A stretch of 64,000 nucleotides of DNA from Maribacter sp. Lineage in GTDB: Bacteria > Bacteroidota > Bacteroidia > Flavobacteriales > Flavobacteriaceae. The translations under genes were made by a program, and so were the position numbers. The notes under the pieces are model-generated. The model ran no database searches and was not told where the DNA came from. It saw only the letters and a program-made list of their open reading frames with translations. Below are positions 13,049 to 18,310 of the stretch, in pieces. Numbering within the stretch: the stretch's first letter is position 1; each line of letters begins with the position of its first letter. The DNA lies in NCBI GenBank assembly GCA_020629415.1, contig JAHDDL010000022.1:1816-65815 (forward strand), read 5' to 3'.

Positions 13049-13789
13049 ATGCTTAAATTGGTAAAACACGCCGGTCAAACAATATATCGAATTTGGTTTT
13101 ATATTCTTGTGGCCATTCCTATCCTGATCTTTTTTCCATTTCTTGTCATATTCGCTTCAAGAGAAGCGTGGTATCCACAATTTTTTTGGATGGCCAGAAA
13201 TCTATGGGCCAGATTTATACTATATGGTATGTTTTGCTTTCCAAAGGTAACCTATGAGCAGAAGTTGATTAAAAATAAGAGCTATATGCTAGTTGCCAAT
13301 CATACCAGTATGCTTGATATTATGCTGATGTTAATAGTAAGTAGAAACCCCTTTGTTTTCGTTGGAAAAAAGGAATTGGTTAAAATACCTTTATTCGGCT
13401 TTTTCTATAAACGTGTATGTATTATGGTAGATCGTGATAATACCCAAAGTAGAACCGCGGTTTATAGACGTGCTCAAAAAAGATTACAACAGGGTTTAAG
13501 TATCTGTATTTTTCCTGAAGGTGGTGTGCCCGAGGAGCATGTGCTGTTAGATAAGTTTAAAGATGGAGCCTTTAAAATGGCTATTGCCCATAAAATACCC
13601 GTAGTACCCATGACCTTTTATGATAATAAGCAAAGGTTTTCATTTACATTTTTTAGCGGTGGTCCGGGTAAATGTAGGGCAAGGGTACATTCCTTTGTTG
13701 AGACGCACTCTATACGCCCAGAAGATACGGCAGAGCTTAGAAATAACGTTAGGGAAACAATACTTAAAGATTTAACGGCTAATGGCTAA
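13049..13789 (+). CDS. plsC: 1-acyl-sn-glycerol-3-phosphate acyltransferase
   Basis: A 246-residue inner-membrane-associated acyltransferase that makes phosphatidic acid from lysophosphatidic acid and an acyl donor. It has an N-terminal hydrophobic helix (residues about 15-35), the catalytic NHTSMLD box (HX4D, near residue 88), the VGKKEL block and the FPEGGVPEE glycerol-phosphate binding motif. Length is typical. The last four bases overlap the convergent barrel gene on the other strand. Confidence 0.93.
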   Translation: MLKLVKHAGQTIYRIWFYILVAIPILIFFPFLVIFASREAWYPQFFWMARNLWARFILYGMFCFPKVTYEQKLIKNKSYMLVANHTSMLDIMLMLIVSRNPFVFVGKKELVKIPLFGFFYKRVCIMVDRDNTQSRTAVYRRAQKRLQQGLSICIFPEGGVPEEHVLLDKFKDGAFKMAIAHKIPVVPMTFYDNKQRFSFTFFSGGPGKCRARVHSFVETHSIRPEDTAELRNNVRETILKDLTANG

Positions 13790-14340
13790 AATCTATAACC
13801 TAAATTTATTCCACCTTTTCCAATGATAGTAAAGTCCCTATCGTTTTTAAATAGGTTACGGCCTATGCCCAAATCTATTTCTACAATAAAACCTCTCTTG
13901 GTAATTAATTTTACACCTGTGCCAATACCCAGGGCAAAATCTACAACGTTGTCATCATAACCGGAATTTGAATAATAGGTGTCAGTTAGTTCGTCATAAT
14001 AGGAGTCGTAGGTGTAATCATCTACGGAATTAAGCATTCCAAAGGCTTCCACAAAAAATCCTGTTGCATACTTCTTACCAAAATATTGACGGTAGTAAGG
14101 GGAAACATAGTAGTTGACATCAATAGTTTCGTCATCAAAAGCAAATAAAACATCTAGGCCTATGGCAGACTCTTCATTAAGCAAATATTGATAATCTACT
14201 TCAATGGCGCCCAAGATTAAAAAAAGGCCGTTTACTTTTAATTCGTGACGTTCTTGTGATGTGGCGTACTCATTATCTTGGTCTTGAGAGTAGGCAAAAA
14301 CACTAAAAAGACAAAGACAGCTTAAAATATACTTTTTCAT
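13786..14340 (-). CDS. Small outer-membrane beta-barrel protein
   Basis: A 184-residue protein with a signal peptide (residues 1-19, cleaved near FAYSQ) and alternating beta-strand sequence ending in LGYRF, the aromatic C-terminus expected of outer-membrane barrels. An acidic, Tyr-rich loop (DDYTYDSYYDE region, residues about 100-125) probably faces outside. It starts nine bases after the dual-membrane protein gene, so it is the last gene of the sigma-factor operon and could be the sensor's partner or regulated product. Confidence 0.8.
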   Translation of the reverse strand: MKKYILSCLCLFSVFAYSQDQDNEYATSQERHELKVNGLFLILGAIEVDYQYLLNEESAIGLDVLFAFDDETIDVNYYVSPYYRQYFGKKYATGFFVEAFGMLNSVDDYTYDSYYDELTDTYYSNSGYDDNVVDFALGIGTGVKLITKRGFIVEIDLGIGRNLFKNDRDFTIIGKGGINLGYRF

Positions 14341-14349
14341 ATGTATTTT

Positions 14350-15870
14350 TTAAAATTGAAAGGTGAGTCCGCTGTAAACCCCAACCGAATATGGTCTAAA
14401 CGTTCCGTTTACATCAGAAAAGGTGTTTAATTGATATTTAAATATTGGTTCTATATTTAACCTAATTTTCTGTGAGAAACTATAGTTAAGTCCTAGGCCC
14501 ATATTGGCACTAAAGTTTAGGTCGTTTATATTATTTGCCTCTCCAATTTCTGTAGTTAAATCTCCAGAGGTCAAGGATACCGTATTATCAATTAAAAATA
14601 GCGAGCTTACACCACCAATAAGATTTACACCTAACTTTTTATCGATTAAGGCATAATTTAATTCTACAGGTAGTTCAACATAACCGAATTGTTGGGACAT
14701 ATAACCTTCTCTTGTAGGGCTTTTTGCGGTTATATCTTGGGCAGAATTCATAGTGTTGAATTTATCTGAAGCAACCCTATTACTAGAAATTTTTAAGGTG
14801 CTAGATGTTTCTGCATAATTAATTGTTGCCAGTTGGCCTTCATTAGAATCTAGACCGGCCGTAGATGAAAAAGCTACATCTTCGGTGTCATAACCGTAAT
14901 CAACTTTATTGATACCTGAACGTATCGTCAGTTTTTTAGTTACTGCATAAGCTACCGATACACCGTAGCTCATATTTACATTACCTGATTTTGCATTGGG
15001 ACTAAAAATAGAGTTTACCGGTGAACCTTCGCCAAGTGCATTAAAATATACCGGTGCAACATTAGGTCCTGCAGACCATCTGTTACTGGTAACTTTTTCC
15101 TTTTTCAATTCTTTTTGGTCCTCTATTTCTTCAAAAATAGATTTCTTTTCAGGTTCAAGTTTTTTGGCAGCATCTTCAGTAGAAGTATTTGCGGCAATAT
15201 CGTTTTCTTTACCGATAATATTTGGGTCTGACTGAATAACAGCATCCGCCTTGTTGATAGCTACTGTTTCATTTATATTTTGAATATTGGATAATGAATT
15301 TTTGCTATCACTCTCGTTCATTGCAGTGCTCAAAGTATTTTTAGCAATCAAATCTTCTTGGACCAAAACATTGTTTTCCGGACTGTTTTTCTTCTGTTCG
15401 GCTACAGCATTTGCAATACCTGAGTTCTTATGCGTGTCAGTTTTTTTAATGGTTAACGCAGCATTGTTAGATTCGTTTTCAGTGTTAGACAAAAAATTCT
15501 CTTTACCTAAAGACTGTTTTTCATTGACCCTGGTAGTCTGTTCAACTATTTGGTCAGTGTTTGTGTTTATAGTATCAACATGAGCATTAGCTTCTGTAGT
15601 GGGTTGAATGTCTTCTATTATTTTAGATTTATTATCTGTATCTACCAAAATTTCATTGGTAGTGTGTTCTTCTGTAAAAGAATTAAATACTAATAGACCG
15701 ATCACTAAAGCGGCAGCTATACCACCAAATGACCACCATAAGGGTATAATTCTTTTCTTTTTACGTTTGTCCAGTGACGCATCAATCGCACGCCAAACTT
15801 TATTGTCAGGGGTTTGCTTGAAATCCGATAACTTATCTCGGAAAAGTTCGTCTATATTTTTCTTCTGCAT
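14350..15870 (-). CDS. Dual-membrane protein: cytoplasmic anti-sigma-like N-terminus plus outer-membrane barrel
   Basis: A 506-residue protein with an unusual layout. Residues 1-40 are charged and cytoplasmic (FRDKLSDFKQTPDNKVWRAID, then KRKKKR); a single transmembrane helix lies at about 41-64; residues about 65-260 are a long polar Asn/Thr/Glu/Lys-rich linker; residues about 262-506 are a PorT-like outer-membrane beta-barrel ending in GLTFQF. The linker is long enough to cross the periplasm, so one chain would span both membranes. It lies 32 bases downstream of an ECF sigma gene. This matches the dual membrane-spanning anti-sigma factors (Dma) reported in Bacteroides thetaiotaomicron. The anti-sigma role here is inferred from architecture and position. 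Confidence 0.8.
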   Translation of the reverse strand: MQKKNIDELFRDKLSDFKQTPDNKVWRAIDASLDKRKKKRIIPLWWSFGGIAAALVIGLLVFNSFTEEHTTNEILVDTDNKSKIIEDIQPTTEANAHVDTINTNTDQIVEQTTRVNEKQSLGKENFLSNTENESNNAALTIKKTDTHKNSGIANAVAEQKKNSPENNVLVQEDLIAKNTLSTAMNESDSKNSLSNIQNINETVAINKADAVIQSDPNIIGKENDIAANTSTEDAAKKLEPEKKSIFEEIEDQKELKKEKVTSNRWSAGPNVAPVYFNALGEGSPVNSIFSPNAKSGNVNMSYGVSVAYAVTKKLTIRSGINKVDYGYDTEDVAFSSTAGLDSNEGQLATINYAETSSTLKISSNRVASDKFNTMNSAQDITAKSPTREGYMSQQFGYVELPVELNYALIDKKLGVNLIGGVSSLFLIDNTVSLTSGDLTTEIGEANNINDLNFSANMGLGLNYSFSQKIRLNIEPIFKYQLNTFSDVNGTFRPYSVGVYSGLTFQF

Positions 15871-15902
15871 CTAGTACTGTTTCTATTTATAGTTAAATTG
15901 AA

Positions 15903-16469
15903 CTATAAAAAGTGTGTTGATATTATAATTAAGATACTTACAATAGATTTTGTAATCTTAGTTTCTATTTTTTCTTTTAACAATGCACGGGCCCTGGCAA
16001 GATTAGATTTAGATGTGCCAACTGTTGTTCCCATCATTTCGCTAATTTCTTTGTGTGTGTACCCGTCCATAACATAAAGGTTGAATGTAGCCCGATATTT
16101 ATCGGGTAATTCCTGTATGTAGCTTAAAAGTGTTTGTAAGCTAATGTCGCAAAAATCATTATCTACTGTTACCTCTTCTTCCGTATTGTCCGTAACTACG
16201 TTTAAATATTCTTGTTTTCTATATTTTTGTAGCGCCGTGTTTACCGTAATTCTTTTCATCCACCCTTCAAAAGACCCTTTATTTTTAAATTGGCCAATTT
16301 TATCATAAATGGTCATAAAGCTGTCATGTAGGGTATCTTCTGCCTGAGATTTGGATTTGGAGTATTTAAGGCATATACCAAATAGCGTAGTGGCATAGGC
16401 TCTATATAATAGTTCCTGTGCTTTACGGTCACCTTTTTTGCAATTATGTATGAGTTCTTCTAGACTCAC
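15903..16469 (-). CDS. ECF-type RNA polymerase sigma factor
   Basis: A 188-residue sigma factor with region 2 (AEDTLHDSFMTIYDKIGQF, WMKRITVNTAL) and region 4 (LPDKYRATFNLYVMDGYTHKEISEMMG, then SNLARARALLKEK). An odd feature is the hydrophobic C-terminal tail, SIVSILIIISTHFL, which is not usual for a sigma factor and could touch the membrane. It is followed by the dual-membrane protein and preceded 15 bases upstream by a lipoprotein gene, so it is likely part of a four-gene operon in which the dual-membrane protein holds it inactive. Confidence 0.93.
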   Translation of the reverse strand: MSLEELIHNCKKGDRKAQELLYRAYATTLFGICLKYSKSKSQAEDTLHDSFMTIYDKIGQFKNKGSFEGWMKRITVNTALQKYRKQEYLNVVTDNTEEEVTVDNDFCDISLQTLLSYIQELPDKYRATFNLYVMDGYTHKEISEMMGTTVGTSKSNLARARALLKEKIETKITKSIVSILIIISTHFL

Positions 16470-16484
16470 AAATGGTTGGTTGTT

Positions 16485-16910
16485 TTAAGGGTTGTTTACT
16501 GGAACTACAATTTCCATATATTCTGCCTCTCCGTCACTATTATCGCCTTTATAAAATTTAAATGTATAAGGTTCTTTATAAATTACTTGGAAGTTGAAAG
16601 ACGCTGTTTCTTGAATTATTTCTTCCATACAATCATCAAAATCAGTTCTTACTGCCCCAATGGCAACAACACTTCTAACGGTCAGGGAATCTTTAACAAC
16701 GTCAAAACCTTCATAGTACGTACAACTATCGGGTTTTAAATAATTTACAGAAATCGTATAAACCTCGTTAAGGTCAAAAGATTCCGGTACTTCTGCATCA
16801 ACAATCTCCAATGCCGTGAAATGGAAATTGGCATCATCATCATCAATAGAACAACCATTGCATAAAAATGCTAAGACCAATGTCAATAACATCAACTTAA
16901 TTTTCATCAT
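16485..16910 (-). CDS. Small acidic lipoprotein
   Basis: About 141 residues from the ATG at 16910 (or 140 from 16907). The signal ends LCNGC, giving a lipidated Cys followed by SIDDDD, an acidic stretch of the sort associated with surface export in Bacteroidota. The upstream start at 16946 would add an unneeded second hydrophobic stretch. Four Cys residues beyond the lipidated one could form disulfides. Function is unknown; it lies just upstream of the ECF sigma gene and downstream of recA in the same direction. Confidence 0.75.
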   Translation of the reverse strand: MMKIKLMLLTLVLAFLCNGCSIDDDDANFHFTALEIVDAEVPESFDLNEVYTISVNYLKPDSCTYYEGFDVVKDSLTVRSVVAIGAVRTDFDDCMEEIIQETASFNFQVIYKEPYTFKFYKGDNSDGEAEYMEIVVPVNNP

Positions 16911-16988
16911 ACAACTATTTTGTAGTAAGATGAAAATTAGACGCAATGGTTGCGTAAACTAAATTATGTTTGCTTAATTCAAATTAAA

Positions 16989-17996: not shown

Positions 17997-18167
17997 TCTC
18001 TATTTTTTTGGAAAGCTAAATTACCAAATCTTTTTTGAATTGAACAATATTGAAATGATTACGCAACCAATTTTAATAAACATCATCTTTTATTAAATAT
18101 AAGTTACTTAATTGGTTATCAATCACTTTTTAGAGTAAGTGATTATAGGTGGTTATCTCCTTCATGT

Positions 18168-18209
18168 ATGTTTTTCAAGAAAGCTATGAAAAAGAGAAGA
18201 ATGGAATAA
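18168..18209 (+). CDS. Possible 13-codon peptide
   Basis: ATG to TAA encoding the strongly basic peptide MFFKKAMKKRRME, ending eight bases before a terminator stem. It may be a leader or tiny membrane-active peptide, or simply chance within a structured RNA. An overlapping ATG at 18164 reads 28 codons through the terminator and is less likely. Confidence 0.2.
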   Translation: MFFKKAMKKRRME

Positions 18210-18216
18210 CCAATAA

Positions 18217-18248
18217 AGAGTCTTGTTTACATACAAGGCTCTTTTTTT
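18217..18248 (+). terminator. Intrinsic terminator of the recA-trhO intergenic unit
   Basis: AGAGTCTTGT (18217-18226) pairs with ACAAGGCTCT (18233-18242), ten pairs including one G-T, with a 6-base loop and a T-run. No annotated gene lies upstream on this strand, so it implies a short independent transcript. Confidence 0.85.
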
Positions 18249-18302: not shown

Positions 18303-18310
18303 TATTTTTG
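18303..18310 (+). promoter_or_regulatory. Promoter -7 element for trhO
   Basis: TATTTTTG matches TAnnTTTG, 59 bases before the trhO start. No TTG at the usual -33 distance. Confidence 0.5.

Follow-up and report, generated by a model that had tools for sequence, protein, structure and literature searches.

The closest described relatives of the locus analysed here are regulatory systems in which an anti-sigma factor reaches from the cytoplasm to the outer membrane. Dma1/Das1 and Dma2/Das2 of Bacteroides thetaiotaomicron comprise an anti-sigma region, a transmembrane helix, a disordered tether, a C-terminal barrel and an adjacent extracytoplasmic function (ECF) sigma factor, and deletion of Dma2 raises the expression of the genes of its own operon (PMC13088901). 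The EcfO-Reo system, described in Phocaeicola vulgatus and Bacteroides fragilis, exhibits an anti-sigma factor extending through all compartments, a proposed sensing of outer-membrane stress and a surface-lipoprotein regulon; in response to an envelope toxin or when its anti-sigma factor is lost, P. vulgatus makes longer O-antigen and induces NigD lipoproteins (PMC9308784, PMC13114119). In Flavobacterium psychrophilum, ECF-type promoters of the SM6 motif are described upstream of the genes for a sigma/anti-sigma pair, for YceA and for the RNA Rfp11 (PMC9723704). The locus considered here lies in a stretch of 64,000 nucleotides from Maribacter sp. (contig JAHDDL010000022.1; hereafter the window) and encodes a lipoprotein, an ECF sigma factor, a 506-residue protein and a small barrel protein. 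Based on sequence comparison, structural models and analogy, it is likely a flavobacterial outer-membrane-tethered anti-sigma system of the Dma/Reo type, with envelope lipoproteins and an RNA as output. As the predicted architecture of the 506-residue protein equals the published design, the core system is, at the level of sequence and model, a further member of the Dma/Reo anti-sigma kind. Relative to the initial annotation of this DNA, the predicted promoter, its other putative targets and the candidate RNA are new. The operon comprises the following features.

16485..16910, minus strand: lipoprotein gene, first in the operon; 141 residues from an ATG at 16910, with the lipobox cysteine at position 20
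15903..16469, minus strand: ECF sigma gene; GTG start, 188 residues, hydrophobic C-terminal tail
14350..15870, minus strand: candidate dual-membrane-spanning anti-sigma factor of the Dma/Reo type, 506 residues (homologues, alignment and model)
13786..14340, minus strand: optional gene for a small DUF3575 outer-membrane protein, 184 residues (open reading frame list, Pfam and locus comparison)
16926..16955, minus strand: operon promoter ACGCAACC-N15-CATCTTA, with predicted autoregulation (locus comparison)

The initial annotation had listed these four genes, and the coordinates place all of them on the minus strand, with the intergenic gaps it had given: 15 bases between the lipoprotein and sigma genes, 32 between the sigma gene and the gene for the 506-residue protein, and 9 between the latter and the small barrel gene. 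The order lipoprotein, sigma factor, 506-residue protein is conserved in 78 of 80 named loci, the remaining two being cut on that side. The neighbourhood also comprises recA (75/80), plsC (78/80) and trpS (75/80), several loci ending at contig ends. The nearest named locus is that of M. huludaoensis, with 96% identity across the 506-residue protein.

The 506-residue protein was modelled at full length with AlphaFold2, using an alignment with 64 homologues, and can be divided into five parts.

15742..15870, minus strand: residues 1-43, cytoplasmic and putatively sigma-binding, with a P21, V25-W26, I29, L33 pattern (alignment, model and phylum loci)
15685..15741, minus strand: residues 44-62, transmembrane helix (alignment and model)
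15151..15684, minus strand: residues 63-240, disordered periplasmic tether of unconserved sequence (alignment and model)
15097..15144, minus strand: residues 243-258, KKSIFDEI-type helix ahead of the barrel (alignment and model)
14353..15078, minus strand: residues 265-506, eight-stranded OmpA-like outer-membrane barrel (Pfam matches of homologues, model and PDB comparison)

The model exhibits helices at residues 6-14 and 23-34, a membrane helix at 44-62, disorder at 66-239, a helix at 245-258 and eight strands between 265 and 501, with Phe506 as the last residue. This bears out the proposal that the protein has a charged cytoplasmic N-terminus, one transmembrane helix, a disordered linker and a barrel ending in phenylalanine, the tether being about 175 residues long and the membrane helix standing behind a cytoplasmic helical start. 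The single transmembrane helix, the long disordered tether and the C-terminal beta-barrel are all features of the Dma family. The mean predicted local distance difference test score (pLDDT) is 61.5 and the predicted template modelling score is 0.48; block means of pLDDT reach 94 in the barrel, whereas the tether (residues 66-239) stays below 50, with block means of about 31-37. OmpA is the closest solved structure in the PDB comparison. Pfam yields a weak OMP_b-brl match for the 506-residue protein alone (E-value 0.001, below the cut-off); in the homologues scanned, OMP_b-brl is matched in 23/23 and OMP_b-brl_2 in 20/23 (E-value at most 1). Conservation in the alignment comprises the N-terminal P-VW-I-L pattern, a WW-GG-AA stretch at the membrane helix (a P-WW-GG-AA region), the KKSIFDEI-like motif and the barrel. 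The KKSIFDEI-like helix thus sits between an unconserved tether and the barrel. The protein is therefore predicted, from alignment and model, to hold its N-terminal helices in the cytoplasm, to cross the inner membrane once, to extend its tether through the periplasm and to insert its barrel into the outer membrane.

If the protein were instead cleaved after its N-terminal hydrophobic segment, the barrel would be an ordinary one, and signalling would proceed by proteolysis or not at all. The unconserved tether sequence and the moderate confidence of the first 60 residues (block means of 56-76) could be reconciled with such processing. Nevertheless, the 43-residue N-terminal region is conserved in the homologues and, as described below, adjoins the sigma gene almost throughout the phylum scan. 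The n-region of a signal peptide is usually far shorter than 43 residues, which also counts against cleavage, and we regard this explanation as very unlikely.

Dual-membrane anti-sigma candidates of this kind are widespread. Among 149 genomes of the same family, a homologue of the 506-residue protein was matched at an E-value of at most 0.001 in 127, two of the matches being weak (G127, 1.2e-6; G131, 1.7e-4), so the earlier view of the locus as an isolated flavobacterial example is not supported. The window's own genome contains a single match to the protein at an E-value of at most 1. A phylum scan of 27 loci, 23 from the same family and four from other families, detected the sigma gene in all 27, and an open reading frame with a Dma-type N-terminus adjoins it in 26 (the exception is L128), with a 4-nucleotide overlap in 11. 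In architecture and in gene order, the proposed likeness to Dma/Das is thus upheld by the model, the 78 of 80 named loci and these 26 phylum loci. Unlike Dma/Das, the present system usually occurs as one locus per genome, lies by recA, has a lipoprotein gene in first position, and exhibits a family-wide promoter and an RNA gene. In two loci from another family of the order (L135 and L138), open reading frames of 622 and 612 residues open with a Dma-type N-terminus behind the sigma gene, and no match to the present barrel was found in them. In-frame fusions of the sigma factor with Dma in these two loci were rejected, since stop codons end them, as was a lipoprotein-sigma fusion in L059, where the alignment had run beyond a stop codon.

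The sigma protein exhibits the Pfam domains Sigma70_r2 (E-value 4.5e-13) and Sigma70_r4_2 (E-value 1.3e-15), and the general sigma70-ECF model is the only NCBIfam model above its cut-off among the matches listed. The unusual hydrophobic tail that had been pointed out is real but lineage-specific: among 78 loci, 30 exceed a mean hydropathy of 1.2 and 14 are unscored. None of 78 named loci has ATG at the conserved start of the sigma gene, the codon being TTG in 62 and GTG in 16; in a wider set of loci the start is non-ATG in most, not all, with ATG in L124 and L125. The use of TTG or GTG rather than ATG suggests that sigma synthesis is kept low. The lipoprotein gene is a conserved neighbour of the sigma/506-residue pair (78/80 named loci), and its product exhibits conserved cysteines at positions 63 and 94 and is modelled as a seven-strand beta-sandwich (mean pLDDT 90.3). 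NigD was rejected as its family, as none of 21 members matches NigD in Pfam and no PDB match is convincing. The small barrel protein matches DUF3575 barely above the Pfam cut-off. It had been counted among the partners of the system and is present in just 8 of 80 named loci, which does not support it as a regular partner; as DUF3575 relatives follow the same promoter type elsewhere, the comparison suggests that in the Maribacter operon this protein is a recruited target. Its gene and a convergent plsC-like gene overlap by 4 bases (13786-13789).

The promoter was recognised by locus comparison. A GCAACC box with a CATCT-type box is present between recA and the lipoprotein gene in all 75 named loci holding both genes, and in the window. 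The boxes and the spacing of 15 are exact in 70 of these 75 loci, a base of the -10 box is changed in four, and the spacing is 14 in one. For 18 of 20 loci that are more distant, the sequence between the genes could be extracted, and inspection by eye revealed the site in all 18, with a degenerate -10 box in two and a spacing of 14 in two. The strict pattern ACGCAACCNTTN12CATCTW, for which the reversed pattern served as control, occurs at 256 sites in 99 of the 149 family genomes, and the control at none in all 149. Strict sites are found in 99 of the 127 genomes with a homologue of the 506-residue protein versus none of the 22 without (Fisher p 8e-13, kinship ignored), two of these 22 having been identified by elimination. 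Seven matches of a loose pattern with a spacing of 16 in the window's own genome were rejected, since they show no short leader followed by an exported protein, and some of them, several in number, fall within open frames.

The promoter could also be read mainly by another ECF sigma factor, or by several, the present operon being merely one target. In F. psychrophilum, the SM6 motif covers genes of the type IX secretion system (T9SS), a sigma/anti-sigma pair, the RNA Rfp11 and the gene of the rhodanese YceA, and is left unassigned among seven ECF sigma factors (PMC9723704), which speaks for this reading and shows that ECF promoters there may serve several sigma factors. In contrast to the present promoter, however, SM6 is described there as including T9SS genes, with no single sigma factor assigned, and with a CGT -10 box in place of CATCT (PMC9723704). 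Considering also that the site precedes the present operon in all 75 named loci and the window and that the strict promoter is absent from the 22 genomes without a homologue, we find a different or shared reader quite unlikely.

With regard to the other targets of the promoter, the 60 regions considered hold 62 of the sites listed, lie away from the dma locus and were chosen regardless of content. The open reading frames behind these sites comprise 38 lipoproteins (by regular expression), seven proteins with other signal peptides, six others and ten small open reading frames, with none behind one site. On rechecking the others by eye, L241, L262, L270 and L282 were also found to encode lipoproteins and L299 probably one, from a TTG start; the target at L269 is an RmlD-like reductase according to Pfam. 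As a rough control from another length class, the same regular expression matches 11 of 510 open reading frames of at least 150 residues in 80 loci. A Pfam scan of 49 of the 51 longer target proteins of the listed sites matched SusD-like (5), TonB plug (3), LVIVD (4) and DUF3575 (2) families. A membrane mini-protein is encoded by eight of the ten small open reading frames; seven of these proteins have 28 residues, a single helix and a shared pattern, ending in F-S-x-N-K-K/R-T-D/E-P or similar (L244, L247, L260, L264, L267, L276 and L278), and one has 34 residues and differs (L268). A similar mini-protein follows a promoter site in the window's own genome (L305). The remaining two small open reading frames fall in L296, where two tandem, near-identical units of promoter and terminator stand without an obvious gene and look RNA-like. 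Together with L280, L296 represents the RNA-like units found behind the promoter away from the recA locus.

A second site of the same type points away from recA and precedes the candidate RNA.

18061..18090, plus strand: second promoter, same type, divergent from recA; score 19.4, one mismatch to the strict pattern
18096..18248, plus strand: candidate structured small RNA, its 5' end inferred from the promoter and its 3' end from the terminator
18215..18244, plus strand: intrinsic terminator stem-loop of the RNA (computed on the window copy)

This site is present upstream of recA in 65 of 75 loci at a position weight matrix score of at least 10, and in about 13 of 20 distant loci by eye. Of the 76 sequences from the 75 loci and the window, 69 have an NTG-containing motif and a terminator behind it under the criteria of the script. 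The alignment of 48 of the 69 exhibits 26 base pairs, of which 21 vary in a compensatory manner on both sides; pairing cells make up 94.1% versus 84.8% in shuffles, the alignment exceeded all 500 shuffles on each of five measures, and slid controls were far lower. The window copy, of about 155 nucleotides, folds with -39.2 kcal/mol (z -4.07). At the gathering score, Rfam yields no family in the window between 16400 and 18500 nor in 10 of the 75 loci, and an identity with GibS was rejected, since its 26.1 bits fall short of the 115 required and the match lies mainly in the terminator. A coding reading was likewise rejected: the NTG is kept (A in 42, T in 16 and G in 7 of 65 sequences) but the frame is not, being 4 to 13 codons long in 40 of 66 sequences and running into the terminator in 26. 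A covariance model with strict filters matches the RNA in 20 of the 149 family genomes, one match each; the 16 strong matches (60 to 147 bits) all share a contig with a dma homologue and lie within about 5 kb of it. In L192, L197, L206 and L207, the divergent transcript encodes a mini-lipoprotein of about 30 residues ending in C-K-A-D-G-G, whose stop region seems, by eye, to lie within the same helix as in the Maribacter RNA.

Rather than being a free small RNA, the transcript might form the 5' leader, or an attenuator, of the rhodanese-type gene yceA that lies downstream. This gene comes next, in the same direction, at 61 of the 69 RNA loci, and an ECF-type start has been mapped ahead of THC0290_0031 (YceA) in F. 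psychrophilum (PMC9723704). However, the terminator closes the unit in the window and in those 69 of 76 sequences, a TAnnTTTG box lies between terminator and yceA in 57 of the 61 loci (at 18303 in the window), yceA was not found in the fetched stretch at eight of the 69, and the RNA-like units of L280 and L296 stand behind the promoter elsewhere. A leader is, in view of these features, unlikely. In the literature searched, which did not extend to subscription papers and supplements, neither this regulon nor this RNA was found to be described.

Returning to the tethered anti-sigma system, we propose that residues 1-43 of the 506-residue protein would hold the ECF sigma factor, and that misassembly, pulling or modification of the barrel under outer-membrane stress would set it free. 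The freed sigma factor would then read ACGCAACC-N15-CATCTW promoters, including that of its own lipoprotein-sigma-Dma operon, which would provide feedback. Further targets would be outer-membrane lipoproteins (SusD types among them), SusC receptors, small barrels, the mini-protein of 28-34 residues and the RNA of about 155 nucleotides. The output is likely a remodelling of surface lipoproteins and of the outer-membrane make-up, with the RNA, which may act on mRNAs, and the mini-protein as a second arm. What the comparison of sequences supports is the order of the operon, the promoter, the co-occurrence, the types of target and the structure of the RNA. The published results on P. vulgatus and on Dma2 given above, and those on TamL in Flavobacterium johnsoniae given below, agree with the proposal.

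Several observations weigh against this proposal. The 22 genomes without a homologue are mostly small, and among genomes of at least 2.5 Mb the contrast in strict sites is 94/118 versus 0/4 (p 0.002); moreover, no strict site is present in 28 of the 127 genomes with a homologue. In 31 genomes of the genus, a looser core pattern also matches the control, with 106 sites versus 14 reversed. When up to two mismatches are allowed, the window's own genome contains seven sites versus ten in the control; since this count is not above the control, the targets in this genome rest on position and gene type. Five of the seven precede the operon (no mismatch), the RNA (one), a 28-residue mini-protein (one) and two lipoproteins (two each), and the other two look like chance, L306 lying inside an open frame of some length and L308 upstream of a membrane gene that is unrelated. 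The lipoprotein of the operon has no Pfam family in the 21 members scanned and no PDB fold at an E-value of at most 0.001. In contrast to EcfO-Reo, for which the cited passages describe NigD lipoproteins in the regulon and do not mention an RNA (PMC9308784, PMC13114119), NigD was matched neither among the 21 lipoprotein members nor among the 49 target proteins. The window's own genome has no NigD_C match above the cut-off, only 3 of 198 phylum genomes have one, and no promoter of the present type lies upstream at three NigD_C loci. Finally, the RNA was found in just 20 of the 149 family genomes, four of the matches being weak and away from the dma locus; as the covariance model finds so few, the RNA in its present form is, judged by these matches, a property of one lineage.

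The Dma/Reo work cited here concerns gut Bacteroides and Phocaeicola, whereas the present locus is widespread in a large environmental family. It may well represent a core envelope stress response of the Flavobacteriaceae, in which a barrel wired directly to a sigma factor controls surface lipoproteins, a small structured RNA and a membrane protein of 28-34 residues, and which would be the Bacteroidota counterpart of the sigma-E/small-RNA response. In Escherichia coli, which belongs to another phylum, the envelope sigma factor sigma-E also makes small RNAs, MicA and RybB, and FoxJ of Fusobacterium, again from another phylum, is reportedly a small RNA of an envelope sigma factor. According to a study in Flavobacterium johnsoniae, depletion of the essential TamL raises 31 of 47 affected outer-membrane lipoproteins and releases vesicles (PMC12045153). 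Such a regulon could explain this response, for which that study shows no link to the present sigma factor. The promoter appears sharp enough for much of the regulon to be read from DNA alone. Based on this promoter and on the wide occurrence of the locus, what Dma senses, why lipoproteins would be the output and whether the small-RNA arm exists are, in tractable species, directly testable questions.

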